A stretch of DNA of 12,365 nt from NCBI GenBank assembly GCA_024223125.1, contig JAAEOP010000266.1:1-12365 (forward strand), read 5' to 3'. This document shows positions 1 to 12,365 of this stretch, piece after piece. Made by a program: the position numbers and the translations under genes. Source of the DNA: Chloroflexota bacterium (GTDB lineage Bacteria; Chloroflexota; Anaerolineae; Promineifilales; Promineifilaceae). Under the pieces are notes generated by a model, which searched no databases, was not told the DNA's origin, and saw only the letters and a program-made list of their open reading frames with translations. Within the stretch, counting starts at the first letter, position 1. Each line of letters opens with the position of its first letter.

Positions 1-1913
1 AGTTGATCATAGGCATCTTGACGGCGTTGGGTACTTTTAGCCAGCACATCATTGTCGATGTCCATCGCTTTGAGTTGATTGAAGAATGCGGGCACATTTT
101 CATGGGCGCGTTCTGTGGCGATGTCGATCTCACGAATGCCGCGACAACCGAAGCGATCCATATAATGGTCAAATGCGATCTGGAACTCGGGCGAGAATTG
201 TTTGTCGGCAAGTTTTTGGGCAAATTCTTCACCTGTTGCTGTCTCTTGCACTTCGGGCTGTTTTGCCAACTCAAACATCAGGTGCCCCATTTCTGAGGTG
301 GGATTGCCATTGAGATCGATGTTTAGGGCGACCAATAAATCTTCAACATCATCTTTCTTAAACAGGCGACTCAGCCGTGTCTGGGCCAGCATAGCGGGAC
401 CCATCACACCTACAATGGTATTCATCTGATTGGCAAAGAGCGCATTGAGTTGCTCAACTAAATTGCTGAATGGCATATCTTGCGTGGCCAATTGTTTAGA
501 TGTGGCAACATCTTTCTCAAAAAGCGCGAGATACTTTTTCTCCGCCTTGCTCTGGTTAAATATCCCGGAAACGAAAGGCTTAATCATAGGGCCTGCCATT
601 TTCGCTGCTCTCAGCTTCATACCCCGCATTGCCTGTGGTGTTTCGGCTGGGACATACGAATCCAAGTCGAGGGTTGCAATCGCGTCACGGGTCGGCGTGT
701 CATAAGTACTAAGCAACCGAGATGCGTATCCTGTGCCAAAACCTGCCATCAAATTCGATAGGTTCACATATTGACGACCTTCACTATTGATTACGCCCCC
801 TTCCATGCCCGCATCAAACAGGCCGGCATCACCTTTGATGGCTTCCAGCATGTTGCCCCAAGTTTCGTTCCCCAAGACCGAGAGCGACTCTTGAAAACCT
901 TGAGTCAAGACGATGAGATCTAAATAAAGATACTTTTCTGCACCAGGTTCGGTGATCATCATGTCCGGCAGGGGCACGTAAGTGGTAATGGGACGGGCTT
1001 GTAAGAGATACAATTTGCCGTCAGCATACGCCCACTCAATATCCATCGGCATGTTGTAATGTGCTTCAACGGTGGTTGTAAGTTTGGTCACTTCAATCGC
1101 TTGTACATCGGTCAAAGAGGCTTTGTTGGGGTCGTCTAATGTTTGTTCAGCCATGCCGCCGCCATCTTTGCTGACGAGGACATGATCTTTGTTTGCTAAT
1201 TGTTTCTGCACAATCTCATGCGTGACTTTATCCACGACAAAGTTGTCGGGCGTCACTTGTCCAGAGACGATGGTTTCACCCAAGCCAAAGTTACTGTTGA
1301 TCACGGCTTCGTCGTAACTGTTGTTGTTGGGGTTGAGTGAGAAGGCGACCCCGCTGACCTCGGAATCAATTTGTGTTTGCACGACGACGGCAAGGCTCAC
1401 CTCATCAGGGGCAATCTCTTGTTTGAGCCGATAGGTGATGGCACGGGCTGTCCAGAGGCTAGCCCAACATTGTTTGACGGTATCGAGTAGTGCCTCTTTG
1501 CCCTGCACGTTCAAAAATGTTTCTTGTTGCCCAGCAAAACTGGCATCGGGTAAATCTTCGGCAGTGGCTGATGAGCGGACAGCTACTGCAACCTCACCTA
1601 AATCGGCATCGGCGGCCATTACGGCCGTAACAATATCCTCAGGCAGTTCTGCACCCAAAAATAATTGTTTAATCTGCTCCGAGGCGGTTTCACTCGACTG
1701 TGGATCGTCTGCAGAAACGGTGTGAGCCAGTTCGACGATCTGTTGTTGCAAACCGTGCGCCTGCACAAAGGCATCATAAGCCGCTGTCGTCAAGACAAAG
1801 CCACCTGGGACAGGAAATCCTGCTGTTGTCATTTCACCCAGGTTGGCACCTTTGCCACCCGCAACGGGGATGTTTGTTTTGTTCAGTTGCGAAAATGGAA
1901 TTGTGTAAGTCAT
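1..1913 (-). CDS. Rph-type PEP/pyruvate-binding-domain phosphotransferase (partial, C-terminus off the left edge)
   Basis: I read this by translating the minus strand from the ATG at 1913. The frame stays open for 637 codons to the window edge, with no stop. A ribosome site (GGAG, 1922-1925) lies 8 nt upstream. The ATP-grasp half carries the family landmarks: GGKGANLGEM with K21, VRSSATAEDLPDASFAGQ with R113, and DIEW (E293) then LLQARPIT (Q305, R307). Near residues 587-597 it has RFGCRGIREID. This matches the YGxRxxxEID element in the middle, substrate-binding part of rifampicin phosphotransferases better than it matches true PEP synthase. Known Rph enzymes use ATP to phosphorylate rifamycins in the cytoplasm, through a C-terminal swivelling His domain; that domain would lie beyond the edge. 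The gene follows a TetR repressor gene by 31 bp, which suggests drug-responsive expression. The family is clear, the real substrate is not, and a PEP-synthase-like role remains possible. Confidence 0.85.
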   Translation of the reverse strand, partial: MTYTIPFSQLNKTNIPVAGGKGANLGEMTTAGFPVPGGFVLTTAAYDAFVQAHGLQQQIVELAHTVSADDPQSSETASEQIKQLFLGAELPEDIVTAVMAADADLGEVAVAVRSSATAEDLPDASFAGQQETFLNVQGKEALLDTVKQCWASLWTARAITYRLKQEIAPDEVSLAVVVQTQIDSEVSGVAFSLNPNNNSYDEAVINSNFGLGETIVSGQVTPDNFVVDKVTHEIVQKQLANKDHVLVSKDGGGMAEQTLDDPNKASLTDVQAIEVTKLTTTVEAHYNMPMDIEWAYADGKLYLLQARPITTYVPLPDMMITEPGAEKYLYLDLIVLTQGFQESLSVLGNETWGNMLEAIKGDAGLFDAGMEGGVINSEGRQYVNLSNLMAGFGTGYASRLLSTYDTPTRDAIATLDLDSYVPAETPQAMRGMKLRAAKMAGPMIKPFVSGIFNQSKAEKKYLALFEKDVATSKQLATQDMPFSNLVEQLNALFANQMNTIVGVMGPAMLAQTRLSRLFKKDDVEDLLVALNIDLNGNPTSEMGHLMFELAKQPEVQETATGEEFAQKLADKQFSPEFQIAFDHYMDRFGCRGIREIDIATERAHENVPAFFNQLKAMDIDNDVLAKSTQRRQDAYDQ

Positions 1914-1944
1914 TTGTAATTCTCCGTAATCTGTGGTGTCCAAT

Positions 1945-2619
1945 TTAATTGGCGAACCAGGCGATGAGGGTATCTTTGTCGATGATAGGCATGGAGCCAG
2001 ATGGTGCGCCGAGAAGGCGTTCAACGGCCGTTTGTACCGCAGCGTTCTTTTGTAAGGCAACTGCTGCTGGATCGTCATATTTTTCATAATTGAAAATCAG
2101 TTCATTCATGGTTTCGCTGAGAGTTGAGATATTGACCATCATGATTTCGGCCGTTTCCAAAATATGCTCTACATCGAAAATACCTTCGTTAACCCCTTGT
2201 GAAATGATTTTTGCCATTTCATGAGCCATCCCCTTAAGTGTTTCGGTGCGTATCTTGTGTGCCAGGAGGATGTTTTCATCCATATGCATTAGTCGGCTCG
2301 TCTCAAGCATCTCTGCTTTGCGTTCTATCTTCCAACTGTTGTTGAGCTGAACTGCTTTTTGCCATTTGGGAATGGCACTTAATGTTTCATCGGTGATGAT
2401 TGCTTGCATATTGGCAACGGCTTGCTCTGCTATTTGCGTTACGATGGCTTCGAGAACGGCCGTTTTCGACCCAAAGTGATGGTAAAATGCCCCTTTCGAC
2501 ACGCCAACTGCCTTGATAATGTCGTTGATGGACGTGTTTTCATACCCTTTTGTAAAAAAAAGCTGCTGTGCCGTTGCGATAAATTGTGCGCGCCGTTCTG
2601 CGCCACCTGTGCGTCCCAT
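1945..2619 (-). CDS. TetR/AcrR-family transcriptional repressor
   Basis: This is a 224-residue protein, normal for the family. Residues 10-60 form the DNA-binding domain: AQQLFFTKGYENTS, then the helix-turn-helix INDIIKAVGVSKGAFYHHF (about 31-49), then the usual K-x-x-L continuation. The C-terminal two thirds are helical and of no recognised ligand class. The start at 2619 is supported by GAGG 7 nt upstream. The gene is the first of a minus-strand pair; the Rph-type gene starts 31 bp after its stop. Its promoter is overlapped by a perfect inverted repeat (2637-2665), the normal arrangement for an autoregulated TetR repressor that also controls the downstream enzyme gene. I infer that a small, possibly antibiotic-like ligand releases it from DNA; the ligand is unknown. 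Two ACGGCCGT octamers lie inside the gene and are read as Thr-Ala-Val. Confidence 0.93.
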   Translation of the reverse strand: MGRTGGAERRAQFIATAQQLFFTKGYENTSINDIIKAVGVSKGAFYHHFGSKTAVLEAIVTQIAEQAVANMQAIITDETLSAIPKWQKAVQLNNSWKIERKAEMLETSRLMHMDENILLAHKIRTETLKGMAHEMAKIISQGVNEGIFDVEHILETAEIMMVNISTLSETMNELIFNYEKYDDPAAVALQKNAAVQTAVERLLGAPSGSMPIIDKDTLIAWFAN

Positions 2620-2636
2620 AAAATAACCTCAATGAT

Positions 2637-2665
2637 AATAACATACCGACGGTCGGTATGTTATT
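2637..2665. promoter_or_regulatory. Perfect 29-bp inverted repeat, probable TetR operator
   Basis: Arms of 14 bp (AATAACATACCGAC and its exact complement) flank a single central G. The core ACATACCGAC/GTCGGTATGT has the size and symmetry of a TetR-family operator. It lies 17 bp upstream of the TetR start codon and contains that gene's -10 hexamer, so occupancy should block transcription of both the repressor and the Rph-type gene. Assignment to this repressor rests on position. Confidence 0.82.
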
Positions 2666-2686
2666 CTAAAATGATGACCATGTCAA
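2658..2686 (-). promoter_or_regulatory. Sigma-70-type promoter of the tetR / Rph-type operon
   Basis: On the minus strand, a consensus -35 TTGACA (2681-2686) is followed after exactly 17 bp by TAACAT (2658-2663), a 4/6 match to the -10 consensus. The -10 lies inside the right arm of the 29-bp inverted repeat. Predicted transcription starts near 2651, the centre of the operator, leaving a short leader that carries the ribosome site. Confidence 0.7.
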
Positions 2687-2780
2687 TAATAAATGGTGAG
2701 TTTCTGTAGAGATTAAGGTTGAGCGTAAAAAGAATCAAAAATGTTCATGTGCAAAAAACACCTAATTTTCAAGGCTATTT

Positions 2781-2797
2781 ATCAACAGGCTGTTGAT
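2781..2797. promoter_or_regulatory. Operator candidate ATCAACA-GGC-TGTTGAT for the second TetR regulator
   Basis: This is a perfect 7-3-7 inverted repeat. It overlaps the -35 hexamer (2793-2798) of the promoter reading into the TetR gene at 2857. The same half-sites recur twice upstream of the membrane-protein gene at 3752 (3620-3650 and 3709-3733). The recurrence makes autoregulation by the neighbouring TetR protein the simplest reading. Confidence 0.72.
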
Positions 2798-2821
2798 TAT
2801 CTCCATTAAGATCAGTACAAT
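2793..2821 (+). promoter_or_regulatory. Sigma-70-type promoter for the second tetR gene
   Basis: TTGATT (2793-2798, 4/6) is followed by a 17-bp spacer and TACAAT (2816-2821, 5/6). Transcription would start near 2828, giving a leader of about 29 nt that contains the ribosome site GGAGG, 7 nt before the ATG at 2857. The -35 is covered by the 2781-2797 operator candidate. Confidence 0.62.
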
Positions 2822-2856
2822 GAGAATATCATATTCCACTCACTGGAGGCCTATAA

Positions 2857-3474
2857 ATGGGTAAAGACTCGCCTATTGATCGTCGCATTGTCCGTACCAA
2901 GAAATTAATCTGCGATGCGCTCGTTACTTTAATTGAGGAAAAGGGATTTGATGCCTTGTCTGTAAAGGATATAACAACACGAGCCAATATTAATCGCGGC
3001 ACTTTTTATTTGCACTACAAGGATAAATTTGAATTGCTTGATAAAACGATGGATGATGCCATTAACGGTTTTGAAAGCGTTTTCCTGCAATCAAAATCCC
3101 TTCGGTTTGCTGATTTTGTCAATACAGATGAACCGATTTCGTTTACCCAAGAGATATTCGAATATATAAAAGAAAATGAAGCCTTAATGCGTGTGATGTT
3201 TAGCATGGGGGGCAGTGGCGCTTTTCAAACGAAATTTAGAAAGATGATGGAAAACAATTTGCAATCCGGATTCTTTGGCGGCCTTCGCGTTGAGAATTTC
3301 CTTGTTCCACATGAATACCTGGTTTCTTACACCCTTCATGCTAATTTTGGCGTTATTCAATCTTGGCTGAATATAGGCTGCCAAGAATCCCCCAAAGAGA
3401 TGGCAAAGATTTTGTCGCGCATACACCTGGACGGGCCATTCCGTTCTTCAGGATCCGATCTGAGTAATATGTAA
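2857..3474 (+). CDS. TetR-family regulator with DhaS-like (TetR_C_7 type) C-terminal domain
   Basis: This is a 205-residue protein. The N-terminal DNA-binding domain is clear: RRIVRTKKLICDAL (9-22), then the helix-turn-helix LSVKDITTRANINRGTFYLHY (about 34-54). The C-terminal part, YLVSYTLHANFGVIQSWL (154-171) followed by SPKEMAKIL (178-186), follows the pattern of the PF14278 group. That group includes DhaS, a DhaK-partner activator, as well as many uncharacterised regulators. GGAGG 7 nt upstream fixes the start. It is transcribed away from the first tetR operon, and towards a membrane-protein gene that shares its operator half-sites. I infer that it represses itself and that gene. The gene has no ACGGCCGT octamers and looks more AT-rich than the genes on the right, which could mean a separate origin. 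Confidence 0.92.
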   Translation: MGKDSPIDRRIVRTKKLICDALVTLIEEKGFDALSVKDITTRANINRGTFYLHYKDKFELLDKTMDDAINGFESVFLQSKSLRFADFVNTDEPISFTQEIFEYIKENEALMRVMFSMGGSGAFQTKFRKMMENNLQSGFFGGLRVENFLVPHEYLVSYTLHANFGVIQSWLNIGCQESPKEMAKILSRIHLDGPFRSSGSDLSNM

Positions 3475-3485
3475 GTACCATAAGT

Positions 3486-3574
3486 GTTAACTTAAGCGAA
3501 GACCTCGCAGGTTTTAACGCAAAACCTCAGAGGGGCGTAGATCATTTTGGAAACCTGCGAGGTCTTAAGTTAAC
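3486..3574. repeat. 89-bp imperfect inverted repeat (REP/MITE-like hairpin element)
   Basis: The outer arms are GTTAACTTAAG plus ACCTCGCAGGTTT on the left (3486-3496 and 3502-3514) and their exact complement on the right (3551-3574). The left arm is interrupted by five extra bases, CGAAG (3497-3501). A third, diverged copy of the arm (AAAACCTCAGAGG, 3521-3533) sits in the loop, so the left arm could pair with either partner. The element begins 12 bp after the tetR stop codon, so its transcript could also slow or end transcription; it lacks a T-run. No ORF lies inside. Confidence 0.7.
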
Positions 3575-3619
3575 GACAATGATGTAAGTGCCATAATTTT
3601 TAGCGCTTCTTTTTCTTGA

Positions 3620-3650
3620 TAATCAACATCCTTTTCTGAGGTGTTGATTA
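3620..3650. promoter_or_regulatory. Upstream operator candidate TAATCAACA-N13-TGTTGATTA
   Basis: Perfect 9-bp arms are separated by 13 bp. They use the same half-sites as the operators at 2781 and 3709 but are spaced ten bases (one helical turn) further apart. The site lies about 27 bp upstream of the -35 of the membrane-protein promoter. It could be an auxiliary site for cooperative binding or looping. A weak hairpin terminator for the upstream gene is the alternative, since a T-rich stretch follows. Confidence 0.55.
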
Positions 3651-3676
3651 GGCAACATTTTTGATTTTATTGTTTA

Positions 3677-3705
3677 TTGACAGCGGGTCTTTAATCTCTT
3701 ATATT
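3677..3705 (+). promoter_or_regulatory. Strong sigma-70-type promoter of the HXXEE membrane-protein gene
   Basis: A consensus TTGACA (3677-3682), a 17-bp spacer and TATATT (3700-3705, 5/6) place transcription start near 3712. That is inside the large operator at 3709-3733. This is the best promoter in the window, and its position suggests it is held off by a repressor rather than being weak. Confidence 0.75.
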
Positions 3706-3708
3706 TGA

Positions 3709-3733
3709 TTTAATCAACACCATGTTGATTAAA
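3709..3733. promoter_or_regulatory. Perfect 11-3-11 operator over the transcription start of the membrane-protein gene
   Basis: Arms TTTAATCAACA and TGTTGATTAAA flank CCA. The core TCAACA-N3-TGTTGA is identical in half-sites and spacing to the site at the second tetR gene's -35 (2781-2797). It begins 3 bp after the -10 box, so a bound dimer would block promoter clearance. It is the longest and most symmetrical of the three copies. Confidence 0.78.
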
Positions 3734-3751
3734 ATGGATTAGGAGTGCGAT

Positions 3752-4378
3752 ATGCAAGCAGAAAAACTAAAAAACAGTCAGCACAAGAGACTGACAAAGA
3801 TCAATCAGCTCTGGCAACGCTTAACCGGGATATTAGCCCCAGTGATTTTAACCCTGTTGGTTCTCTGGAAAGCGACTCAGCCCACTATCTCTTGGTTCGA
3901 ATGGTTGTTGTGGCTTCACCTGCCACTGGTTATGTTCCACGAATTTGAAGAATACGTGCTTCCGGGTGGGTTCAAGCATTTCTTTAATAACTACACACCC
4001 CTTTCTTTGGATCCACCTTCCGATAGTTATCCAATCGACGAAACGAAGACATTCTTTATTAACATCGGGCTTTGGGTTTGGATTATTCTTGGCGCCTTAT
4101 TAGCGAATATGGCACCTTGGATTGGCGTATCGGCGGTAATTTTTCAAATAATGAATGGCTTTGCGCACACCATCGTCATGCAGACACAGCGACCTGGATA
4201 TAACCCTGGAATCATCACCACAGTCTTTCTCCTCATTCCGTATATTGTGGCGGCGTTATGGGTGAGCATTACGCAAGGTATTCTGGGGCCGGTGGGCTGG
4301 ATAATTTCTTGCGTGGTAGGTTTTGGCGGTATAGTGGCGCTGATTTGGTTCTCAAACTTTTATAATCGCCCGAGTTGA
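3752..4378 (+). CDS. HXXEE-family integral membrane protein
   Basis: This is a 208-residue hydrophobic protein. It carries HEFEE (H63, E66, E67) at the end of the second hydrophobic stretch, NGFAH (N135, H139) in the middle, and a later NPG (151-153). The HxxEE and NxxxH pair defines the HXXEE membrane family (PF13787), whose function is unknown; the polar residues inside membrane helices suggest a metal site or an enzymatic role. I see hydrophobic segments near 25-40, 48-66, 102-120, 123-140, 155-172 and 180-200, with a short basic N-terminus and no cleavable signal. AGGAG, 6 nt before the ATG, supports the start. A strong promoter overlapped by an operator precedes it, and the matching operator sits at the TetR gene upstream, so it is the likely target of that regulator. 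The family call is firm; the role is not known. Confidence 0.88.
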   Translation: MQAEKLKNSQHKRLTKINQLWQRLTGILAPVILTLLVLWKATQPTISWFEWLLWLHLPLVMFHEFEEYVLPGGFKHFFNNYTPLSLDPPSDSYPIDETKTFFINIGLWVWIILGALLANMAPWIGVSAVIFQIMNGFAHTIVMQTQRPGYNPGIITTVFLLIPYIVAALWVSITQGILGPVGWIISCVVGFGGIVALIWFSNFYNRPS

Positions 4379-4426
4379 AATTGTTTGCACAGAAAAACCC
4401 TTTCAAGGTTGAAACAGGGGGTGGTT

Positions 4427-4458
4427 TTTGTGGGAGAAACGGCCGTTTCTCCCACAAA
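4427..4458. terminator. Perfect 32-bp palindrome centred on ACGGCCGT, possible bidirectional terminator
   Basis: Each 16-bp half reads TTTGTGGGAGAAACGG, with no unpaired loop base in the DNA palindrome. It lies between the ends of two convergent genes (stops at 4378 and 4642), the usual place for a two-way terminator. It lacks a proper T-run on either side, so it may instead be a REP-like element built on the octamer. Confidence 0.5.
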
Positions 4459-4641
4459 TCTCAAGCACAACAGCAGCCAAACCAAACAGCAAGCGTTGAA
4501 TGAGATGTTTCGCAGTAGGGTGACGTTGAATGAGTTGTTGTGATGGGGGAGGACGGCCGTTTGCCTGCCATTGTTTGCGTTGGGGCTTGGGGAGAAGTGA
4601 GGGGAGAAACGGCCGTTTTGCACCGAGTACAAACGGTAACG
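4459..4641. other. Intergenic stretch with octamer copies and a short direct repeat
   Basis: I see no convincing gene here. The stretch holds two ACGGCCGT octamers (4553-4560 and 4609-4616), each inside a purine-rich GGGGAG-type context. It also holds two copies of CGTTGAATGAG (starting at 4494 and 4524), exactly 30 bp apart. Together with 4427-4458 this is the 3' region shared by the membrane-protein gene and the helicase operon. Confidence 0.5.
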
Positions 4642-6303
4642 TTAAGCAGCATCATAATACCGAATCTCATATCGGTAGCCTTGTTCCACCAGGAACATTT
4701 GCCGTTTAACGCCAAACTCCTGCTCACGCGAGCCGCGCGAAACGAGGGTGTAAAAGTGGGAGGCTTGCTCTTTGGGGCGTAAGATGCGCCCCAATCGCTG
4801 CGCCTCCTCTTGCCGTGAGCCGTAGGTTCCCGACACTTGAATCATCACATTGGCATCTGGCAAATCGACGGCGAAATTGGCGACTTTGGAGACGACCAAC
4901 ACCGTAATTTCGCCCGCTTTGAAAGCGTCGTACAGAACTTCCCGCTCGGAGTGTTTGGTTTTGCCGGTGATGATGGGGGCGTTTAATGCTTTGGCTAATT
5001 TTTCTAATTGAGCGATGAATTGCCCAATCACCAAAATGTGTTCCCCTTGATGAAGCTCTAACAACTCCTCCACAAGGGTTGTTTTGTCTGAATTTTCGGC
5101 AGCGATGCGGAATTGCGCCCGTTTTTGCGCCAGCGCGTACTTCATCGCTAACGCTTTGGACATGGGTACGCGGTATTCGATGCAAAATGCTTCGGCGATG
5201 AACCCTTTCTTTTCCAAAACACGCCAAGGCACATCGTACCGCTTGGGGCCGATGAGCGCGAAAACATCCTCTTCACGGCCGTCTTCCCTTACCAAAGTCG
5301 CCGTCAAACCCAATCGCCGCCGCGACTGAATTTCCACCGTCGCCCGAAAAACGGGAGCGGGCAGCATATGCACCTCATCGTAAATAATCAAGCCCCAGTT
5401 GTGGGCGGTGAACAACTTCAAATGCTCAAATTCATCCTCTTTTGAGCGGCGATGGGTGAGCATTTGATAGGTGGTGACGGTGATCGGCTTGATCGCTTTT
5501 TCCATCCCTGTGTACTCGCCAATCAAATCGGAGGTGATGTGGGTTTTGGCTAACAGTTCGTCATGCCATTGACGCACGGAAATGTTGTTGGTGGTGACGA
5601 TAAGCGTTCGGGCGGAGATACGCGCCATCGCCCCCAGTCCGATGATGGTTTTGCCGGAGCCGCAAGGCAGGCAGATGATGCCGCTGCCGCCGATGGAACG
5701 GCCGGAACGGTAAAACGCTTCTACAGCGTCCGTTTGGTAATCGCGCAGTTGGAACGATTGGCCGATGGTATCCACATCGCGCAGAGCCAATGGCAATGGG
5801 TCGCCGCTGACGTAGCCGCATAAATCTTTGACGGGGTAGCCGACCTGGATGAGGGCTTGTTTGAGATTGCCGCGCCAGGCGGCGGAGACGAAGATGTTGT
5901 TTTGTTGCCGCTCCAGCCAATAGGATTGCAGGGGTTTTTCGCGCCAGATTCTCTCGAGTACGGCCGTATCTCCTACAGTAAGTCGTAAACGGCCGTTTTC
6001 CGCCGGATGCAACTCCAATAATCCATACGCCTCATACCATTCCCGCATATTCAGCAGCACAGCGGCAGGCACATCATAGCGGGCAAACGTCTGTAGCCCT
6101 TCCTCAATAAACGCGAACGAGATTTCCAGCGCGGCCGCATTCCAAAGCGAAAGCGGCGTGACGCGGTAAGTGTGGATAAATTCTGGCGATTTGACCAATT
6201 CGGCAAACTGCACCAAAAAATCACGCGCCGCTTCATAGCGCGGATGTGCCACTTCCAGCATAAGCGTATGGTCGCTTTGGATGATTAATGGGCCGTCGCT
6301 CAT
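4642..6303 (-). CDS. xpb: XPB/Rad25-type DNA repair helicase (superfamily 2)
   Basis: This 553-residue protein is full length for bacterial XPB. It opens with the N-terminal domain typical of actinobacterial XPB: DGPLIIQSDHTLMLEV (3-18), then HTYRVTPLSLWNA (44-56). It then has all helicase landmarks: Q-motif-like QLRDYQ (185-190), Walker A LPCGSGKT (K218), DEVH (309-312), GLTATLVRED with the XPB-specific RED (R339-E340-D341), and motif VI QEEAQRLGRILRP (498-510). XPB proteins are ATP-driven 3'-5' DNA translocases that open duplex DNA in repair; this one would act on chromosomal DNA in the cytoplasm. Its ATG overlaps the TGA of the upstream gene by 4 bp, so the two are translationally coupled. 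Both upstream genes encode helicase-associated proteins, which supports one complex. No motif is missing. Confidence 0.96.
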   Translation of the reverse strand: MSDGPLIIQSDHTLMLEVAHPRYEAARDFLVQFAELVKSPEFIHTYRVTPLSLWNAAALEISFAFIEEGLQTFARYDVPAAVLLNMREWYEAYGLLELHPAENGRLRLTVGDTAVLERIWREKPLQSYWLERQQNNIFVSAAWRGNLKQALIQVGYPVKDLCGYVSGDPLPLALRDVDTIGQSFQLRDYQTDAVEAFYRSGRSIGGSGIICLPCGSGKTIIGLGAMARISARTLIVTTNNISVRQWHDELLAKTHITSDLIGEYTGMEKAIKPITVTTYQMLTHRRSKEDEFEHLKLFTAHNWGLIIYDEVHMLPAPVFRATVEIQSRRRLGLTATLVREDGREEDVFALIGPKRYDVPWRVLEKKGFIAEAFCIEYRVPMSKALAMKYALAQKRAQFRIAAENSDKTTLVEELLELHQGEHILVIGQFIAQLEKLAKALNAPIITGKTKHSEREVLYDAFKAGEITVLVVSKVANFAVDLPDANVMIQVSGTYGSRQEEAQRLGRILRPKEQASHFYTLVSRGSREQEFGVKRQMFLVEQGYRYEIRYYDAA

Positions 6304-8063
6304 GTCGTTTTATCCTCGAATTTGATGGTGTACTCTTGTCGTAACAGTTTTAGGGCGGCATCGACTTGCGGTTTGTACGCTTGATTATAAGAGATAGACA
6401 AATTGGCCTGATTGGGTTCAAAGATGCACCGTTGCTTGAGCAGCTCATCCCGTAATTTGGTGTAGAAAACGGCCGTTGGCGCATGTAAAACCAATCGTGT
6501 TTCCCGTTGAATCACAACCCGATTTTTGGTTTTGCGTTTGGGTTTGGCCTTCACAGCTTTTTGTTTGGGAAAAATAGTACGCGCTTTGATTGGCAAAGCC
6601 GTCCAACGGGCATCCGAATGTTTGATGAAGAGGGGTACACGCTCGGCGCGTATTAATTCCTGAAGCAGCTTTTCTGGCTGACGAACCAGCCGTATTTTGG
6701 GCGTGATCTGTTCCACAACAAATGGTTGCGCTTCTGGCAGCCGTTGATTCCCTTCCAGAACGGCGAACCCTTCGTACAGAGTAAAAGCGTCGGCTTGCCC
6801 CGCCCACTCTTCCAGCTCTATAGCGATGTTTTGCGGCAGGGGGCGACCGGTTAAGCGGTGCAAAAAGGGGGCAATTTCTAACTTGCTATCGGCCGCCAAC
6901 GCCGCTTTGACGCGCTGTTTTTCCAGTTTGAGGACGGTTACTCGGTCTTCGGTTATCAACTCGGCAAATCGTTGCAATTTTCGCATTAAGCCGGGATGGT
7001 AAAAGGGGGATTCCAGATGGATTTCAAAGTTGGGCAAGACGGTCACTTTAGATTTTAAGGTGTCGTCGTTCATGAATTGGAGGAAACGGCCGTTTACTCG
7101 AAACGCTTCCACCATCCCCCGCTCTGGCATTTTTCCCTTGTAATCTCCTTTTTTATACGCCACATCCACATACCCCAACGTCAGGGGAATGCCCTCTAAA
7201 AAGCGTTCGATAAATCGTCCTTCCACCCGCTCAAACCCATCTGTCGCATCATCAGAAATGGGGTCTTCATCACGATAATACCCTCTCTCCTTTTTATGTT
7301 CGTAGAAATTACCGTATCGTTTCATGCGTTGTTTTGGCTTTTTCCAGCCAACACTTTCCATAGGCAATTTAGATCTTTGGGGAATAAGAAAGTAAGGGTT
7401 ATTTGTTTTTAAGTAGCGGATAAGCGATTTCGTTGTATACCAGACACCACTCTCCAACCTAGACAACAATCTAAAAAGAAAACGACGCTTTTGCGGCGCA
7501 TCAAACGATTCCATCACGCCAGTCGCGCTGCCCCATGACGGAAAACCGTTAAGCCGACTTTGCAGATGACGACCATAAAATTCGTTATATATCTTGTCAT
7601 TCACAACCGTGTTAAACAGTTTGGTTTCCTGTGCCAGCAAATGGGAGTTTAAGAATTTTTCATATGGTTGCTGATGAAATTCAATATAATTATTCGGGTA
7701 AGAGGGGCTATGACTGGAGTAGCCAGCATATTCGCCTTCTGTATCGTAATCGACAAATCCCAAATGTAAGGCGAGTGAATCTATCTCATCAATCCACCAG
7801 GAAGAGCCATCTTCTTGAATATCTTTCAGGCAGTCAGGGTGGCTCATGAGTTTAGCAAGTCGTTTGGAATCTGCTTTGGGCAATTGGTTGCTGCGATGGG
7901 CGCGTTTTATCTCCCGCTGGCTCACATAGGCCACAAATTCATGAATGTCGCGCCGCATATTGTACGGATTGCTGTACACATCTAAATGGGAGACGGTGCA
8001 GGTTTCTAATTCTGTCTGTCTTCCTTCTTTCAGTCTTTTGAGTAATGGATTGTCTGTCCTCAT
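6300..8063 (-). CDS. XPB/Ssl2 N-terminal-like (helicase-associated) protein, probable XPB partner
   Basis: This 587-residue protein has a recognisable core at about 338-435: SKVTVLPNFEIHLESP, FAELI, and then PQNIAIELEEWAGQ. That is the pattern of the helicase-associated XPB/Ssl2 N-terminal domain (PF13625) in the mycobacterial gene beside XPB (Rv0862c type). Before it lies a winged-helix-like segment, FLEGIPLTLGYVDV to FRVNGRFLQF (288-330), and another around 190-228. Residues 500-514 form a lysine-rich linker, suggesting nucleic-acid contact. The first 180 residues I do not recognise; they are Tyr/His-rich and charged. GGAG lies 9 nt before the ATG, 20 bp separate it from the gene upstream, and its stop overlaps the XPB start. 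I infer that it regulates or anchors XPB. It has no catalytic motif that I can see. Confidence 0.85.
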   Translation of the reverse strand: MRTDNPLLKRLKEGRQTELETCTVSHLDVYSNPYNMRRDIHEFVAYVSQREIKRAHRSNQLPKADSKRLAKLMSHPDCLKDIQEDGSSWWIDEIDSLALHLGFVDYDTEGEYAGYSSHSPSYPNNYIEFHQQPYEKFLNSHLLAQETKLFNTVVNDKIYNEFYGRHLQSRLNGFPSWGSATGVMESFDAPQKRRFLFRLLSRLESGVWYTTKSLIRYLKTNNPYFLIPQRSKLPMESVGWKKPKQRMKRYGNFYEHKKERGYYRDEDPISDDATDGFERVEGRFIERFLEGIPLTLGYVDVAYKKGDYKGKMPERGMVEAFRVNGRFLQFMNDDTLKSKVTVLPNFEIHLESPFYHPGLMRKLQRFAELITEDRVTVLKLEKQRVKAALAADSKLEIAPFLHRLTGRPLPQNIAIELEEWAGQADAFTLYEGFAVLEGNQRLPEAQPFVVEQITPKIRLVRQPEKLLQELIRAERVPLFIKHSDARWTALPIKARTIFPKQKAVKAKPKRKTKNRVVIQRETRLVLHAPTAVFYTKLRDELLKQRCIFEPNQANLSISYNQAYKPQVDAALKLLRQEYTIKFEDKTT

Positions 8064-8083
8064 ATTGTATTACTCCAAAATAA

Positions 8084-9478
8084 TTAATAATTTTTAACCA
8101 CATGCCCCATTTGGGCGACGATGCGTTTGACTTTGGCTAACGCTTTGGGCGGAAAGGCAATGTATTCGTCGGAAAGGGGAATAAATTCGGTTGGTTTTAA
8201 GGTGCGTTCGATTTTGATGCGCAAGGGCAAATCTTTGACGCGGGCGACGAGTAAATTGCTGTGTACAATTTGCTTGCCCCATCGAGATTTGATGGTTTTT
8301 TGCATCGCGGCAAAGGCGGGGATGTTGTCGCTTAACCATCCCATGAGCGGCGAGACAAGAATGTTTTGCGGCGCAACGCCCATGCGGATGAAGTTTGGAA
8401 CGGCCGTCATCTTTCCATCTGTTACTTTCAAATCTGCAATTTGGCTTAATTGCTCAAACACGGTGTAGGGGATGGTGCGTAGATTGAGGAGCGCGGTTTC
8501 TTCATCCAGCGCGGATAGATAATCGGCTGGCGGCGGCGGTTCGGCGGCGGCTGGTTCGGCACCAGCTAAACGGTAGCAGGTACGGCCGTTTACCTCATTT
8601 TGCGCCAGATACCCCCACTTCCAACCCAATTGACAAATTTTTTCGGTATCGAGGGTACGCAAGCAAAAAATCTTCAACACGTCGTCCAACTGCTGGGGCA
8701 AAATCCATTCATCTGGCTGGAGCAAGCCGAGTGCGTAATTGAGCGCATCTACTGGTTTCATCATAAATTTTGGGCCGATGACAGATGGCCGTTGACTATA
8801 TTCAGTTCCAGCAGGCATAACGTGCTGCCAACTGGCTTTCTGCCATTTTTGTAAATCGGCGGCCTGGAATGGTTTATCGCCAGAGAGAAGACGGCCGTTA
8901 CGCAACGACATCGCATACTTCGGTAAAGCAGGTAGCGGTGGATCCACTTCCCCTGTTAGTGCCAATAGCTTGTTGCGCGGCACATCTCGCTGTACTGCGC
9001 CCGGTGTCGTCAAACGCTCAATTTCCGACATGGGGCGGGGCAAATATGGCGCAAACTCCTTTGGGAAAACAAAGCGCCACTGCTCCATCTTCGTCAAATC
9101 AGGGTACGGCTTTTGCGCCATAATGAGAATACCCTTGCGTACCAACTGCGTTCGCACTTGTTTGAACACTGGCTGATACCGCTGGGTAAAGGTGCGACTG
9201 TAGTAGCCAGACTTAAAATCCGGGTTATACAATCGTTCAAACCATGTTAGAGAAGCAGATTCACCCGCCAGATGCAGTAGATGTAGCAATGCTAACTCAG
9301 CCGGGGTCAAGGTTGCCAGTGCCTTTTTAACGCCCACAGGGGAAAGATAAAAACTCGCCAGCGTACTGCGATTAGCAGCTTCGCGGCGGCTAAAGCCGCG
9401 ATTCTTGCTAATCGCATTAATATCCGCCTGTGATAAATCATCATGACACATTCGATGTAGTAAAGTTGTTGTATCCAT
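8084..9478 (-). CDS. Helicase-associated winged-helix protein, first gene of the XPB operon
   Basis: This 464-residue protein has no enzyme motif. The N-terminal part (about 30-145: LSPVGVKKALATLTPAELAL and onwards) resembles the start of the large XPB-partner proteins. A second winged-helix-like unit lies at 255-305, ending LGWKWGYLAQ then CYRLAG. An Ala/Pro-rich linker (302-320) leads to a C-terminal module (about 330-460) with VHSNLLVARV and EFIPLSDEYIAFPP. Its layout is similar to the end of the next gene's product, so the two may be paralogous subunits. It is the promoter-proximal gene; the 587-aa gene starts 20 bp downstream and XPB follows. I infer a DNA-binding or scaffolding role in an XPB complex. 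Assignment rests on context plus weak sequence resemblance. Confidence 0.78.
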   Translation of the reverse strand: MDTTTLLHRMCHDDLSQADINAISKNRGFSRREAANRSTLASFYLSPVGVKKALATLTPAELALLHLLHLAGESASLTWFERLYNPDFKSGYYSRTFTQRYQPVFKQVRTQLVRKGILIMAQKPYPDLTKMEQWRFVFPKEFAPYLPRPMSEIERLTTPGAVQRDVPRNKLLALTGEVDPPLPALPKYAMSLRNGRLLSGDKPFQAADLQKWQKASWQHVMPAGTEYSQRPSVIGPKFMMKPVDALNYALGLLQPDEWILPQQLDDVLKIFCLRTLDTEKICQLGWKWGYLAQNEVNGRTCYRLAGAEPAAAEPPPPADYLSALDEETALLNLRTIPYTVFEQLSQIADLKVTDGKMTAVPNFIRMGVAPQNILVSPLMGWLSDNIPAFAAMQKTIKSRWGKQIVHSNLLVARVKDLPLRIKIERTLKPTEFIPLSDEYIAFPPKALAKVKRIVAQMGHVVKNY

Positions 9479-9485
9479 GCCGCTT

Positions 9486-9491
9486 ATTGTA
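9486..9491 (-). promoter_or_regulatory. Possible -10 box of the helicase operon, implying a leaderless start
   Basis: TACAAT on the minus strand ends 7 nt before the ATG at 9478, so transcription could start at the A of the start codon. No good ribosome site precedes that ATG. No convincing -35 lies 17 bp upstream, where there is only a T-run, so the call is weak. Confidence 0.3.
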
Positions 9492-9582
9492 CTGGAAGGA
9501 GGGTAATTAAAAAAACGGGGGAGCAGGGCGGGGATACGGGAAGATGCAGCGTGGCCGCAGTTGAAGTAGGTGGCTTTGTGTT

Positions 9583-9663
9583 GGTGATGGGGGGAGGTAA
9601 CGGCCGTTTCCCATCAGCTAAAATTGTGTGTGGTGATGGGAAGAAATGACCGTTCCCCCCATT
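9583..9663. repeat. Pair of degenerate inverted palindromic elements around an octamer
   Basis: The first copy (about 9583-9620) reads GTGATGGGGGGAGG, then AACGGCCGTTT, then CCCATCA. The second (about 9632-9663) is the same element inverted and decayed: read on the minus strand it gives GTGAATGGGGGGAACGG then TTCCCATCAC. They lie between the end of the ABC exporter gene (9663) and the start of the helicase operon, and could fold as a terminator for the exporter transcript. The rest of 9479-9662 holds no gene that I can support. Confidence 0.5.
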
Positions 9664-11471
9664 CACCCCAAATACCGACAGTGACTCACATACAAATCAG
9701 CATAAAACCCGCCCGCTGCCAGCAGCGAATCGTGTGTGCCGCGCTCAATGATACGGCCGTTATCAACCACAAGAAGCTGGTCTGCCCGGCGGATTGTGCT
9801 GAGGCGGTGGGCGATGACGAAGGCGATACGGCCGTCCATCAACCGTAGCAACCCCTCCTGAATTTGCAACTCTGTGCGCGTGTCCACACTGCTTGTTGCC
9901 TCGTCCAAAATGAGGATGCGTGGATCGGCGAGGATGGCGCGGGCGATGGCCAGAAGCTGACGCTGCCCTTGACTGAAATTATGCCCTTTTTCCGACACCT
10001 TCGTCTCGTACCCTTGCGGCAGCCGACGGATAAACCAATCCGCATTCGCCAGTTGAGCGGCGGCGATGACCTCATCGTCGGTGGCATCTAAACGGCCGTA
10101 ACGCACATTCTCCATCACCGACCCCGAAAACAAGAACGTATCCTGCAACACAATCCCCAACTGCGACCGCAGCGATGCCTGTTTGACTTGGCGGATATCC
10201 TGCCCGTCAATACAAATGCGCCCCGCATCGACATCATAAAATCGGGTGAGTAAATTGATAATCGTCGTTTTACCCGCGCCCGTTGGCCCCACAAGGGCTA
10301 TCGTTTGCCCCGCTTGGGTACTCAAATTGACATCCCGCAGCACTGGCTTTTCGGGATTGTAGCCGAAGGTAACATCTTCAAAGGTGACGACCCCTTCAAT
10401 TGTTGGCAATGGTGGCGCCGCCGCCAAATCGGCGACGGTGGGAACGGCGTCGAGTAGTTCAAAAATGCGCTCGGCTCCTGCCAAAGCGGATTGCAAATGG
10501 TTGTAGAGCATGGCGATGCCGCGCATGGGGCGGAAAAAATTATTGATGTAGACGACAAATGTGGCGATAACGCCCACCGTGACCACGTTTTGTAAGGCCA
10601 GCCATCCCCCAAGCAGGGCGGTGGCGGCGATGGTGATCGTACTCATGGTGGTGAACATCGGGCCTAAAGCGGCGGTGATAATATCGGCCGTCGTGCCGGA
10701 TTTGCGATTGGCGGCGTTGACGATGGCGAACTGTTCTTGGGTGGCCGCGCTGCGGGCGAACGCTTGCACGACCCGAATCCCGTTGATATTTTCTTCCATC
10801 ACGGCATTCATCACGCCCAAATTGCCCTGCACTTCGCGGAAGGCGACGCGGCTGCGTTTGGTCACTTGTCCGGTGATGAAAACCATCAGGGGAATGATGA
10901 TTAGCATACCGATGGCGAGCTGCCAATTGAGCAAAAACATCGCTGCCAAGATGCCGCCCAGCATCAAGATGTTGGTTGTGAATTGGATGAGGCCATTGGA
11001 GAGGACTTGGTTAATCGCTTCGGTGTCGTTGCCGACGCGACTCATCAAATCGCCAACTTTGTGCTGGTCGTGGTAGGCCATCGACAGCAGTTGTAAGTGG
11101 TTGAAAAGCTCCCCTCGAATGTCGGCGACTAATCGCTGCCCGACGCTGACCATCAAAATGCCGTAGACGACGGCGGCAATGCCGCCCAGTAGATAGATGC
11201 CCAACATCGTCGCGGACAGTTGTAATAATAAGGCAGCGTTGCCGGGAATAATCGCTTGGTCGATGGCGATGCCGATCAAAATCGGGCCGGCTAAGGTGGC
11301 GATTGTGCCGATGATGACGAGGATGGCGATGAGGATGAGTTTGCGGGAATACGGCCGTGCATACTTAAACAAACGTCCAATCGTCGTCCGCAGCGTTTTC
11401 GCGCCTTCGCCTGTTAATGCGCCTCCGCCGTACCCGATTCTGACGCGGGGGGTGTTGGGTTTTGTGGTCAT
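9663..11471 (-). CDS. ABC exporter half-transporter, catalytically complete subunit (LmrD-like)
   Basis: This 602-residue half-transporter has an N-terminal cytoplasmic tail (1-40), six membrane helices (about 43-318) and a nucleotide-binding domain (360-600). Walker A is GPTGAGKT (395-402). Walker B is ILILDEATSSVD with catalytic E524. The switch histidine is H555 in IAHRLSTI. The signature motif is FSQGQ (499-503) instead of LSGGQ. The ATG at 11471 overlaps the TGA of the upstream ABC gene by 4 bp, so the two are coupled and almost certainly form a heterodimer. The off-consensus signature here faces the degenerate Walker B of the partner, as in TM287/288, BmrCD and LmrCD. Such pairs export drugs or lipids from the inner leaflet of the membrane; the substrate cannot be read from sequence. 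Two octamers near the 3' end are read as NGR and DGR. Confidence 0.94.
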   Translation of the reverse strand: MTTKPNTPRVRIGYGGGALTGEGAKTLRTTIGRLFKYARPYSRKLILIAILVIIGTIATLAGPILIGIAIDQAIIPGNAALLLQLSATMLGIYLLGGIAAVVYGILMVSVGQRLVADIRGELFNHLQLLSMAYHDQHKVGDLMSRVGNDTEAINQVLSNGLIQFTTNILMLGGILAAMFLLNWQLAIGMLIIIPLMVFITGQVTKRSRVAFREVQGNLGVMNAVMEENINGIRVVQAFARSAATQEQFAIVNAANRKSGTTADIITAALGPMFTTMSTITIAATALLGGWLALQNVVTVGVIATFVVYINNFFRPMRGIAMLYNHLQSALAGAERIFELLDAVPTVADLAAAPPLPTIEGVVTFEDVTFGYNPEKPVLRDVNLSTQAGQTIALVGPTGAGKTTIINLLTRFYDVDAGRICIDGQDIRQVKQASLRSQLGIVLQDTFLFSGSVMENVRYGRLDATDDEVIAAAQLANADWFIRRLPQGYETKVSEKGHNFSQGQRQLLAIARAILADPRILILDEATSSVDTRTELQIQEGLLRLMDGRIAFVIAHRLSTIRRADQLLVVDNGRIIERGTHDSLLAAGGFYADLYVSHCRYLG

Positions 11472-12365
11472 TGGTTTGCCCCCTGACGGGTAGAGACGCC
11501 CCGCCGGGGCGTCTCTACGGGGTCATCGCCCAATTGGGATTGATAAATTTCTTGATAGATGGGGCTGTGGGCGAGCAGTTCGTCGTGGGTTCCTTCGGCG
11601 ACTAAACGGCCGTGTTCCAACAATAATATCTTGTCCGCCCGTAATACCGACGTAATCCGTTGGGCGATGATGAATGTGGTGCGATTGGACATCAATCTGT
11701 CCAAGGCGGCTTGGATGTTGGCCTCCGTTTCCATGTCCACCGCGCTGGTGCTGTCGTCCATAATCAAAATGCGGGGCGAGATGAGCAGGGCGCGGGCGAT
11801 GGCGATGCGCTGTTTTTGCCCGCCCGACAAATTGCTGCCCCGTTCTTCGATGTAGCTGTCATATTGGTCGGGCAGGGCGGTGATGAAGTCGTGGGCTTGC
11901 ACCGCTTCTGCCGCCGCGATGACCTCATCTAGCATGGCACCGGGACGGCCGTAGGCGATATTCTCGAAGACGGAGCCGCTAAACAGCGTCGTTTGTTGCA
12001 GCACGACCCCGATCCGCTGGCGCAACGCTTCCGGTTCCCAGTCGCGGACAGGCACATCATCAATGAGAATACGGCCGTTATGGACATCATAAAAACGGGG
12101 GATGAGATTGATTAGACTGCTCTTACCGGAACCAGTCGCTCCCAAAATGGCGACCTGCTGACCGGGTTCGACGGTAAAACTGAGATTGGTCAACACATCC
12201 CCACCGCCGTGTCGCGTGGTGTGGCCGTCTTCGTTGAAACGGCCATGTGCGCTCGCTTCCAGCCCATCATAATGGAAGGAAACATCCTCAAAAACGACCC
12301 GCCCCCGCAGATCATCGGCGCGGAAAGGGGCGGGCGCAATTTTGACGGCCGGCTCCGTATCCAAC
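11468..12365 (-). CDS. ABC exporter half-transporter with degenerate ATP site (partial, N-terminus off the right edge)
   Basis: Only the nucleotide-binding domain and C-terminal tail are in the window. The reading frame is open to the edge, so the real start and the six membrane helices lie beyond it. Numbering from the first complete codon, Walker A is GATGSGKS (75-82), the signature is a canonical LSGGQ (179-183), and Walker B is ILIMDDSTSAVD, with Asp204 in place of the catalytic Glu. The switch residue is Gln235 (IAQR) in place of His. It is therefore the degenerate partner of the next gene. There is an unusual insertion of roughly 25 residues after the A-loop Tyr (about 33-57; Gly, His and Asp-rich). 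The last residues, about 283-292, are encoded by a perfect REP-like palindrome, so the tail may be an acquired extension. Confidence 0.92.
   Translation of the reverse strand, partial: LDTEPAVKIAPAPFRADDLRGRVVFEDVSFHYDGLEASAHGRFNEDGHTTRHGGGDVLTNLSFTVEPGQQVAILGATGSGKSSLINLIPRFYDVHNGRILIDDVPVRDWEPEALRQRIGVVLQQTTLFSGSVFENIAYGRPGAMLDEVIAAAEAVQAHDFITALPDQYDSYIEERGSNLSGGQKQRIAIARALLISPRILIMDDSTSAVDMETEANIQAALDRLMSNRTTFIIAQRITSVLRADKILLLEHGRLVAEGTHDELLAHSPIYQEIYQSQLGDDPVETPRRGVSTRQGANQ
11490..11518. repeat. Perfect 13-3-13 REP-like palindrome inside the end of the ABC gene
   Basis: GTAGAGACGCCCC and its exact complement flank GCC. It is read in frame as VETPRRGVST near the C-terminus of the upstream ABC subunit, 22 bp before that gene's stop. 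Such GACGCCCC/GGGGCGTC hairpins look like dispersed REP elements; only one copy occurs in the window. Confidence 0.7.
12194..12268 (-). other. In-frame insertion with palindromic character in the ABC nucleotide-binding domain
   Basis: This segment encodes about 25 residues between the A-loop tyrosine and the strand leading to Walker A, where related exporters have only a few. It contains an inverted repeat (GGCCGT at 12223-12228 and ACGGCC at 12239-12244) made of the two halves of the abundant octamer. It may be a captured repeat; the exact insertion ends are estimated. Confidence 0.4.

Follow-up and report, generated by a model that had tools for sequence, protein, structure and literature searches.

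A highly iterated palindromic octamer with lineage dialects in a family of Chloroflexota

Very few bacterial genomes are reported to match the octamer frequency of the highly iterated palindrome HIP1 of cyanobacteria (a 2012 paper crediting unpublished work, PMC3497702). HIP1 (GCGATCGC) and the alternate highly iterated palindromes (HIPs) of cyanobacteria are described as GC-rich words with approximately 500–2,500 copies per Mb, which deviate on their outer bases and have longer extensions in some genomes; lineage alternates such as GCGATCGC and TCGATCGA have a core in common (Elhai, 2015, PMC4390886). According to the same study, wherever a word is highly over-represented in a cyanobacterial genome, that genome contains one or more putative methyltransferases capable of marking the word, and HIPs are ascribed to methyl-directed repair; HIP1-rich genomes without a CGATCG methylase are also recorded. 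The function of HIP1 is still open, partly because word and methylases mostly co-occur in cyanobacteria (Elhai, 2015, PMC4390886). In Synechococcus elongatus, HIP1 is reported to be distributed over the open reading frames apparently at random, and its scarcity marked foreign genes (PMC3025956). Here, we analyze the palindromic octamer ACGGCCGT, found in a stretch of 12,365 bases (contig JAAEOP010000266.1; hereafter the window), and its occurrence in related genomes.

DNA uptake sequences and uptake signal sequences (DUS/USS) are oriented and non-palindromic, and so are Chi sites, which are G-rich; Dnd phosphorothioation takes place at GGCC. Like Chi, the word studied here is short, over-represented and lineage-specific, and a role in recombination is possible, but it is a palindrome with up to approximately 15,000 copies per genome and it changes protein sequences. 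It has the GGCC core in common with Dnd sites, but DndC was found above cut-off in only 5 of the 52 genomes of the family concerned. Dnd genes are thus not a general feature of the word-carrying genomes, and phosphorothioation was rejected as an explanation. The DUS of Neisseriaceae are described as having thousands of copies per genome, dialects that track phylogeny and an invariant short core, and the dialects are attributed to the specificity of a DNA-binding protein (PMC3630211). Copy number, dialects and core are similar here, but the word is palindromic and present on phage contigs. With the cyanobacterial HIPs it shares the GC-rich palindrome, the range of density, the deviations on outer bases, extensions in some genomes and lineage alternates around a common core, in this case ACGGCCGT, TCGGCCGA and GCGGCCGC. 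It differs from HIP1 in its sequence (core CGGCCG), in its Chloroflexota host, in the lack of a methyltransferase common to its genomes among the two enzyme families searched, and in being dense on contigs with tailed-phage genes rather than scarce in foreign DNA. It represents a new HIP family that has dialects and probably does without methylation. Among the titles and beginnings of abstracts listed in a literature search, none described an iterated octamer for Chloroflexota.

A palindromic octamer iterated in most genomes of one family

An earlier note on the window had claimed that ACGGCCGT occurs far over chance (22 copies vs. about 0.2), both in genes and in intergenic DNA. Indeed, 22 exact copies were counted, whereas 200 dinucleotide shuffles gave a mean of 0.17 and a maximum of one. 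The next commonest palindromic octamers have only two copies each; among octamers of any kind, the next commonest overlap ACGGCCGT, and the commonest one that does not overlap it has six copies. Four of the 22 copies are intergenic and 18 lie in genes, namely those of PPDK_N, TetR, an XPB-type helicase, two genes adjoining the latter, and two ABC transporter genes. The genic copies encode TAV (6), [NDYH]GR (11) and ARPY (1), in line with the peptides TAV and NGR which the note had considered to be imposed by the word; TAV is in excess in relatives as well (see below).

The note had further taken the octamer for a genome-wide, HIP1-like signal, and whole-genome counts in relatives bear this out. 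Counts of ACGGCCGT are bimodal among 396 genomes, drawn evenly from a larger group, of the class that includes Anaerolineales bacterium HSG25 (G001). The 21 genomes with more than 1,000 copies are without exception members of a single family of 52 genomes, that of G370. Outside this family, no genome of the class sample exceeds 430 copies (in 3.6 Mb). Within the family, 27 of the 52 genomes reach densities of 991–2,102 per Mb (genome sizes rounded to 0.1 Mb), with 14,867 copies in G370; the reversed word TGCCGGCA has 40–459 copies in the same 27 genomes. A sample of 751 kb from 25 of these 27, in which many loci were chosen via methylase, helicase or rpoB matches, contains 1,213 copies of ACGGCCGT vs. 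an expectation of 18 (third-order Markov model, sites masked). Neither a count near expectation nor an equal enrichment of many octamers was found in the relatives, as judged by genome counts, the Markov model and a survey of the 256 palindromic octamers in the samples. This family certainly carries a highly iterated palindrome: the octamer is present at hundreds to thousands of copies per Mb, far over the Markov expectation, in genes in all frames and in intergenic DNA. Its restriction to one family in the class sample, the dialects and the word-carrying phage contigs were all unforeseen by the note. As a separate observation, ten class-sample genomes of 2.2–6.0 Mb (G027, G059, G132, G163, G250, G256, G328, G340, G363, G373) completely lack ACGGCCGT; this suggests that the word is avoided there, perhaps via restriction.

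The window originates from this octamer-rich family or a close relative. The best matches of its 602 amino acid ABC transporter among the 396 class genomes are in G365 (74%) and G400 (72%), both octamer-dense family members, and a protein search returned a 76% relative labelled Candidatus Promineifilaceae. In a DNA alignment with G365 (72–74% identity), the octamer stands at the same place at four of the seven covered positions (9753, 10092, 11351 and 11945), and G400 shares two of three; the aligned parts of the six next-best genomes in this region (68–72% identity) contain none. Site 5275 in the helicase gene has the same octamer in three of the four family members covering it (G141, G385 and G413); it is absent there in G262 and in G001. 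Since a search with RpoB of G370 returned, besides proteins labelled Anaerolineae and Ardenticatenaceae, relatives of 80–84% identity labelled Candidatus Promineifilaceae and Candidatus Leptofilum, the octamer-rich family is probably, though not provenly, Promineifilaceae.

The XPB-type helicase of the window (4645–6303) shows another pattern of similarity: it is 69% identical to that of the octamer-poor G001 (locus L001) vs. 52–54% to those of 11 family members, possibly owing to horizontal transfer or to a sister lineage that is not sampled. Its named protein relatives at 69–83% identity carry the labels Chloroflexi or Ardenticatenaceae. The gene was rejected as a taxonomic marker, being misleading. 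The 80 loci from the helicase comparison contain at most three octamers each.

Dialects of the word and the upkeep of its sites

A genome was assigned to a dialect when one word reached at least 800 copies per Mb, which applies to 31 of the 52 family genomes. Genomes with the ACGGCCGT dialect are referred to as ACG genomes, those with TCGGCCGA (G102 and G406) as TCG and the one with GCGGCCGC (G189) as GCG. TCGGCCGA is present in 9,414 copies in G406 and 7,668 in G102, GCGGCCGC in 12,040 copies in G189. A fourth dialect, TGCCGGCA in G409 (3,665 copies), is without the CGGCCG core. G159, G212, G289, G359, G423 and G424 contain mixtures of NCGGCCGN, around CGGCCG, and the clade of G075 shows weak mixtures. 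Among the dialects of the palindrome, ACGGCCGT dominates, and all but one have the core CGGCCG.

In an RpoB tree of 44 genomes, calculated by a quick method, the ACG genomes lie on one side of a branch with a support of 97, and eight genomes without a clear dialect are interspersed among them. G102 and G406 cluster with the mixed genome G159, and G189 clusters with mixed genomes (support 86). As in DNA uptake sequences, the dialects are congruent with phylogeny and have a common core, except for TGCCGGCA of G409 with its other core. The dialects also differ in their surroundings. The base adjoining the word is A or T in 96% of the cases in the two TCG genomes and C or T in 87% in G189. ACG sites show a weak preference for an adjoining A and are G-rich on the 5′ side and C-rich on the 3′ side out to approximately 10 bases, in genic as well as intergenic DNA. 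The pairing of these ACG flanks is about that predicted from composition and a single window copy lies in a long palindrome; selection for hairpins was therefore rejected. When places of ACG octamers were compared with sites of an alternate dialect, only 2 of 22 covered sites coincide and 20 lie elsewhere. Switching of dialects in place was rejected on these grounds; the alignments rather suggest that the sites are established anew when the dialect changes.

The word fills most of the places where the protein sequence is compatible with it. In ACG genomes, the octamer exceeds the expectation from codon usage 6.6-, 17.7- and 48.8-fold in the three frames, and in the ACG sample it occupies 505 of 520 TAV, 393 of 461 [NYHD]GR and 214 of 300 compatible third-frame places. 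TAV itself is found 520 times (15 in a non-octamer coding) vs. 56–152 times for its five permutations; in the TCG genomes, SA[DE] is raised instead (78 vs. 9–40). Octamer sites add amino acids to proteins and thus alter their sequence. One-base variants of the outer position are enriched in ACG genomes over the third-order Markov expectation (T 4.8-fold, G 2.6-fold, C 1.1-fold), whereas variants of the core are at 0.36–1.09 of expectation, and only the outer base is free. This bias of deviations to the first and last positions, typical of HIPs, is present in ACG genomes and less clear in the TCG and GCG samples, which are small.

The earlier note had proposed to examine whether the octamer stays intact between relatives. 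Compared with 20 kb of G370, it is intact in five ACG relatives at 28/40, 19/24, 34/45, 29/39 and 15/23 aligned places (65–79%), whereas other 8-mers are intact at 14–38%. Considering the sites of either genome in eight pairs (four without G370), 47–92% of the octamers are intact vs. 13–58% of the controls. Among the changed sites, one-offs account for 16 of 60 vs. 47% in controls. The sites are not evenly spaced and follow no ruler: gaps between them are near random (coefficient of variation 1.09), and counts are somewhat clustered (variance/mean 1.5–2.7 in 18 loci, one with a repeat array). A spacing peak at 44–46 bp stems mostly from one repeat array, which is located in L229 (G404) at 9307–16370 and consists of imperfect tandem units of approx. 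90 bp with an octamer every 44–47 bp. Dispersed repeats of approx. 70 bp were seen in L224 (G370) at 11647–11717 and 16643–16714; they have matches, on either strand, in numerous contigs of G262, G404, G405 and G242.

Viral contigs and candidate causes

The IMG/VR database was scanned for three copies of ACGGCCGT within 84 bases, which yielded 14 stretches (L238, L239, L245 and L250 being dense), and for two octamers, which yielded at least 120. The viral loci were thus selected for clustered octamers; among the 129 loci listed, 20 reach a density of 1.9 per kb or more, and these lie on 15 contigs. Selected proteins from nine contigs were scanned for phage families. Structural genes of tailed phages were detected on four contigs, with 1.5–3.6 octamers per kb: terminase, portal, major head and tape measure on the contig of L245 and L343 (3.5 and 2.7 per kb; L307 on the same contig 3.6), terminase on L305 (1.9), portal and head on L315 (2.0), and terminase and portal on L347 (1.5). 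Besides, L332 has a partial tail-spike match and L272 a helicase loader, while the single protein scanned from L238 had no PHROG match. L239 carries endolysin-like, antirepressor, ParA-like and RadC genes and L250 a partition gene and a terminase-like gene. These two dense contigs, combining ParA or partition genes with FtsK- or terminase-like genes, are perhaps phage-plasmids. Fourteen dense viral loci, not all of them proven to be phage, comprise 143.7 kb with 376 copies; the octamer fills 127 of 130 TAV and 137 of 157 [NYHD]GR places there, and its intergenic density is 3.8 per kb. Phage contigs are assigned to these hosts by the word alone.

Scans for three copies of another word gave 6 viral stretches for TCGGCCGA, of which the short L396 has 1.9 per kb (5 in 2.7 kb) and the other five 0.5–0.8 per kb, so that no clear phage counterpart of this dialect was seen, and 29 stretches for TGCCGGCA, the densest being L410 (12 in 5.4 kb). 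Phages of other dialects were not accepted as established, as the TCGGCCGA and TGCCGGCA stretches are unannotated and without a link to this family; the IMG/VR scans for other dialects covered these two words. The IMG/VR contigs L409, L410, L415, L418 and L426 have 7–12 TGCCGGCA in 5–14 kb, 37–181 times the expectation, some at approx. 40% GC, and L410 (2.2 TGCCGGCA per kb) could come from a host similar to G409.

Taken as a whole, these observations are best explained by a highly iterated palindrome kept by a trans-acting, sequence-reading factor of repair or recombination, a reading which we prefer tentatively and with somewhat less than even confidence. As to the mechanism behind the palindrome, we infer that a symmetric, probably dimeric, sequence-specific factor of replication, repair or recombination would read CGGCCG together with outer bases and flanks. 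Near-matches would be converted or restored to the perfect word, either by biased repair or conversion or by very strong selection, and the process would work on each site independent of spacing. With a drift in the factor's specificity, old sites would decay and new ones arise elsewhere. Such a site-by-site process is favoured over a spaced structural element because compatible places are filled, near-misses of the core are not in excess, the spacing is irregular and phages carry the word. The reader would be expected in all dialect genomes, changing with the dialect.

Several points weigh against this reading. A core variant is also in excess in the TCG sample (11 vs. 5) and outer variants are unenriched in G189, both samples being small, and between G370 and the TCG genome G406 the octamer is intact at 0 of 2 places. 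In the three closest pairs (89–92% identity), one-offs make up 7 of 16 changed places vs. 0.68–0.69 in controls, with 3 of 4 in one pair; the numbers behind the deficit of one-offs are small and non-independent, gapped places having been left out. Further, the intergenic density in hosts is 1.31 per kb vs. 1.61 overall, which would not be predicted by pure mutation drive. Finally, strong selection for a function would also explain the conservation and the scarcity of near-misses; the chief competitor of the site-by-site process is strong selection of this kind, for a signal of self-identity or recombination. A methylation-independent code of genomic identity, in which some factor treats DNA of the current dialect as self, while chromosomes and phages dwelling in the host are rewritten to saturation, into their proteins, is conceivable, though doubtful.

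In a related, Chi-like explanation, which we regard as unlikely, a host nuclease-helicase would spare or recombine word-bearing DNA, phages would acquire the word to survive, and a palindrome would serve both ends. The four phage contigs at least as dense as host DNA agree with this, as do a word varying by lineage, as nuclease specificity could, and a G-rich flank 5′ of the word on both strands. However, known Chi sites are oriented and non-palindromic, the near-complete filling of TAV places together with irregular spacing exceeds the need of a function with diminishing returns, and the TCGGCCGA dialect has the weak viral record described above.

The earlier note had also listed a methylase site among possible causes. 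If the model of Elhai (2015) for cyanobacteria is applied to the present word, an m5C (5-methylcytosine) or m4C (N4-methylcytosine) methyltransferase of CGGCCG-type specificity would, with methyl-directed mismatch repair, make and keep the word. The anatomy is that of HIP1: a palindromic core rich in GC, outer bases that differ from genome to genome and, in ACG genomes, deviations on the two terminal bases; moreover, PF00145 (m5C methyltransferase) is present in 17 of 31 dialect genomes. But it is missing in the other 14, and with 7 of 21 in the remaining genomes (24 of 52 in total) the association with a dialect is not significant (Fisher p 0.16). PF01555 matches 48 of 52 genomes, 41 above cut-off; its best match is marginal in G370 (E 4.6e-4) and G419 (5.0e-4), both without PF00145. 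No methyltransferase common to all dialect genomes was thus found across the 52 genomes in PF00145 and PF01555, the only families searched, with assembly completeness and enzyme specificities not known, and a shared methyltransferase was rejected as the cause. N6-methyladenine cannot mark all dialects either, because the CGGCCG core holds no adenine. The word probably does not depend on being methylated, and the view of Elhai (2015) that every word-rich genome has a suitable methyltransferase does not, as a general rule, extend to the two enzyme families searched here. As an account of the present word, we hold the methylation-linked scheme to be improbable.

A DNA uptake signal as in Neisseriaceae or Pasteurellaceae, with a competence machinery favouring word-bearing DNA and transformation spreading the word, appears quite improbable to us, even if dialects congruent with phylogeny and a short common core are known from DUS (PMC3630211) and prophages of Pasteurellaceae are reported to accumulate uptake sequences (PMC7371117): the word is a palindrome, its sites are unevenly spread, and tailed phages have no need of competence. 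Binding of the word by an abundant nucleoid protein or global regulator would fit a palindrome with graded symmetric flanks and the intergenic copy in a 32-bp palindrome between convergent genes, yet the irregular gaps and the lack of an intergenic preference in hosts make it very unlikely. An artefact of local composition, a local repeat or sampling, for which only the shortness of the window speaks, is ruled out for practical purposes by the shuffles, the counts of other octamers, the genome counts in relatives, the survey of 256 palindromes and the Markov model.

Chloroflexota provide an independent case to cyanobacteria, with four dialects in one family, lineages with weak mixtures and genomes with at most a marginal match in both searched methylase families, and these together make the causes separable by comparison. 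The phage contigs offer a second test, namely whether DNA surviving in the host needs the word. Further, up to approximately 15,000 places per genome, including proteins, are set by a DNA word, which bears on phylogeny, binning and phage-host prediction.

Positions of the octamer in the window

All octamer-bearing genes of the window are on the minus strand. The PPDK_N gene (3–1913), truncated by the left end of the window, has a TAV copy at 1621..1628, and the TetR-family gene (1948–2619) has two, at 2024..2031 and 2456..2463. The following part of the window (2464–4438; approx. 2 kb, approx. 40% GC), in which another TetR gene and an HXXEE gene are located, contains no octamer and is perhaps a recent acquisition. 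In the XPB-type helicase gene, the octamer encodes DGR at 5275..5282, TAV at 5960..5967 and NGR at 5989..5996. The adjoining gene 6303–8063, with a Helicase_C_3 match below cut-off, has TAV at 6469..6476 and NGR at 7086..7093, and gene 8087–9478, without a Pfam family, has TAV at 8400..8407 and NGR at 8582..8589 and 8891..8898. In the first ABC transporter gene (9666–11471), the copies at 9753..9760 (NGR) and 10092..10099 (YGR) are identical octamers in G365 and G400, that at 11351..11358 (ARPY) is identical in G365, and that at 9828..9835 (DGR) is a non-octamer in both genomes. In the second (11471–12364), G365 has ACGGCCGC in place of the copy at 11606..11613 (HGR), a non-octamer at 12071..12078 (NGR) and the identical octamer at 11945..11952 (YGR).

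The claim that the four intergenic copies sit in longer palindromes holds in part. The copy at 4553..4560 is not extended beyond the octamer, and those at 4609..4616 and 9600..9607 are extended to merely 12 and 10 bp. The copy at 4439..4446, however, is the centre of a perfect palindrome of 32 bp (4427..4458) between the convergent HXXEE and XPB genes.

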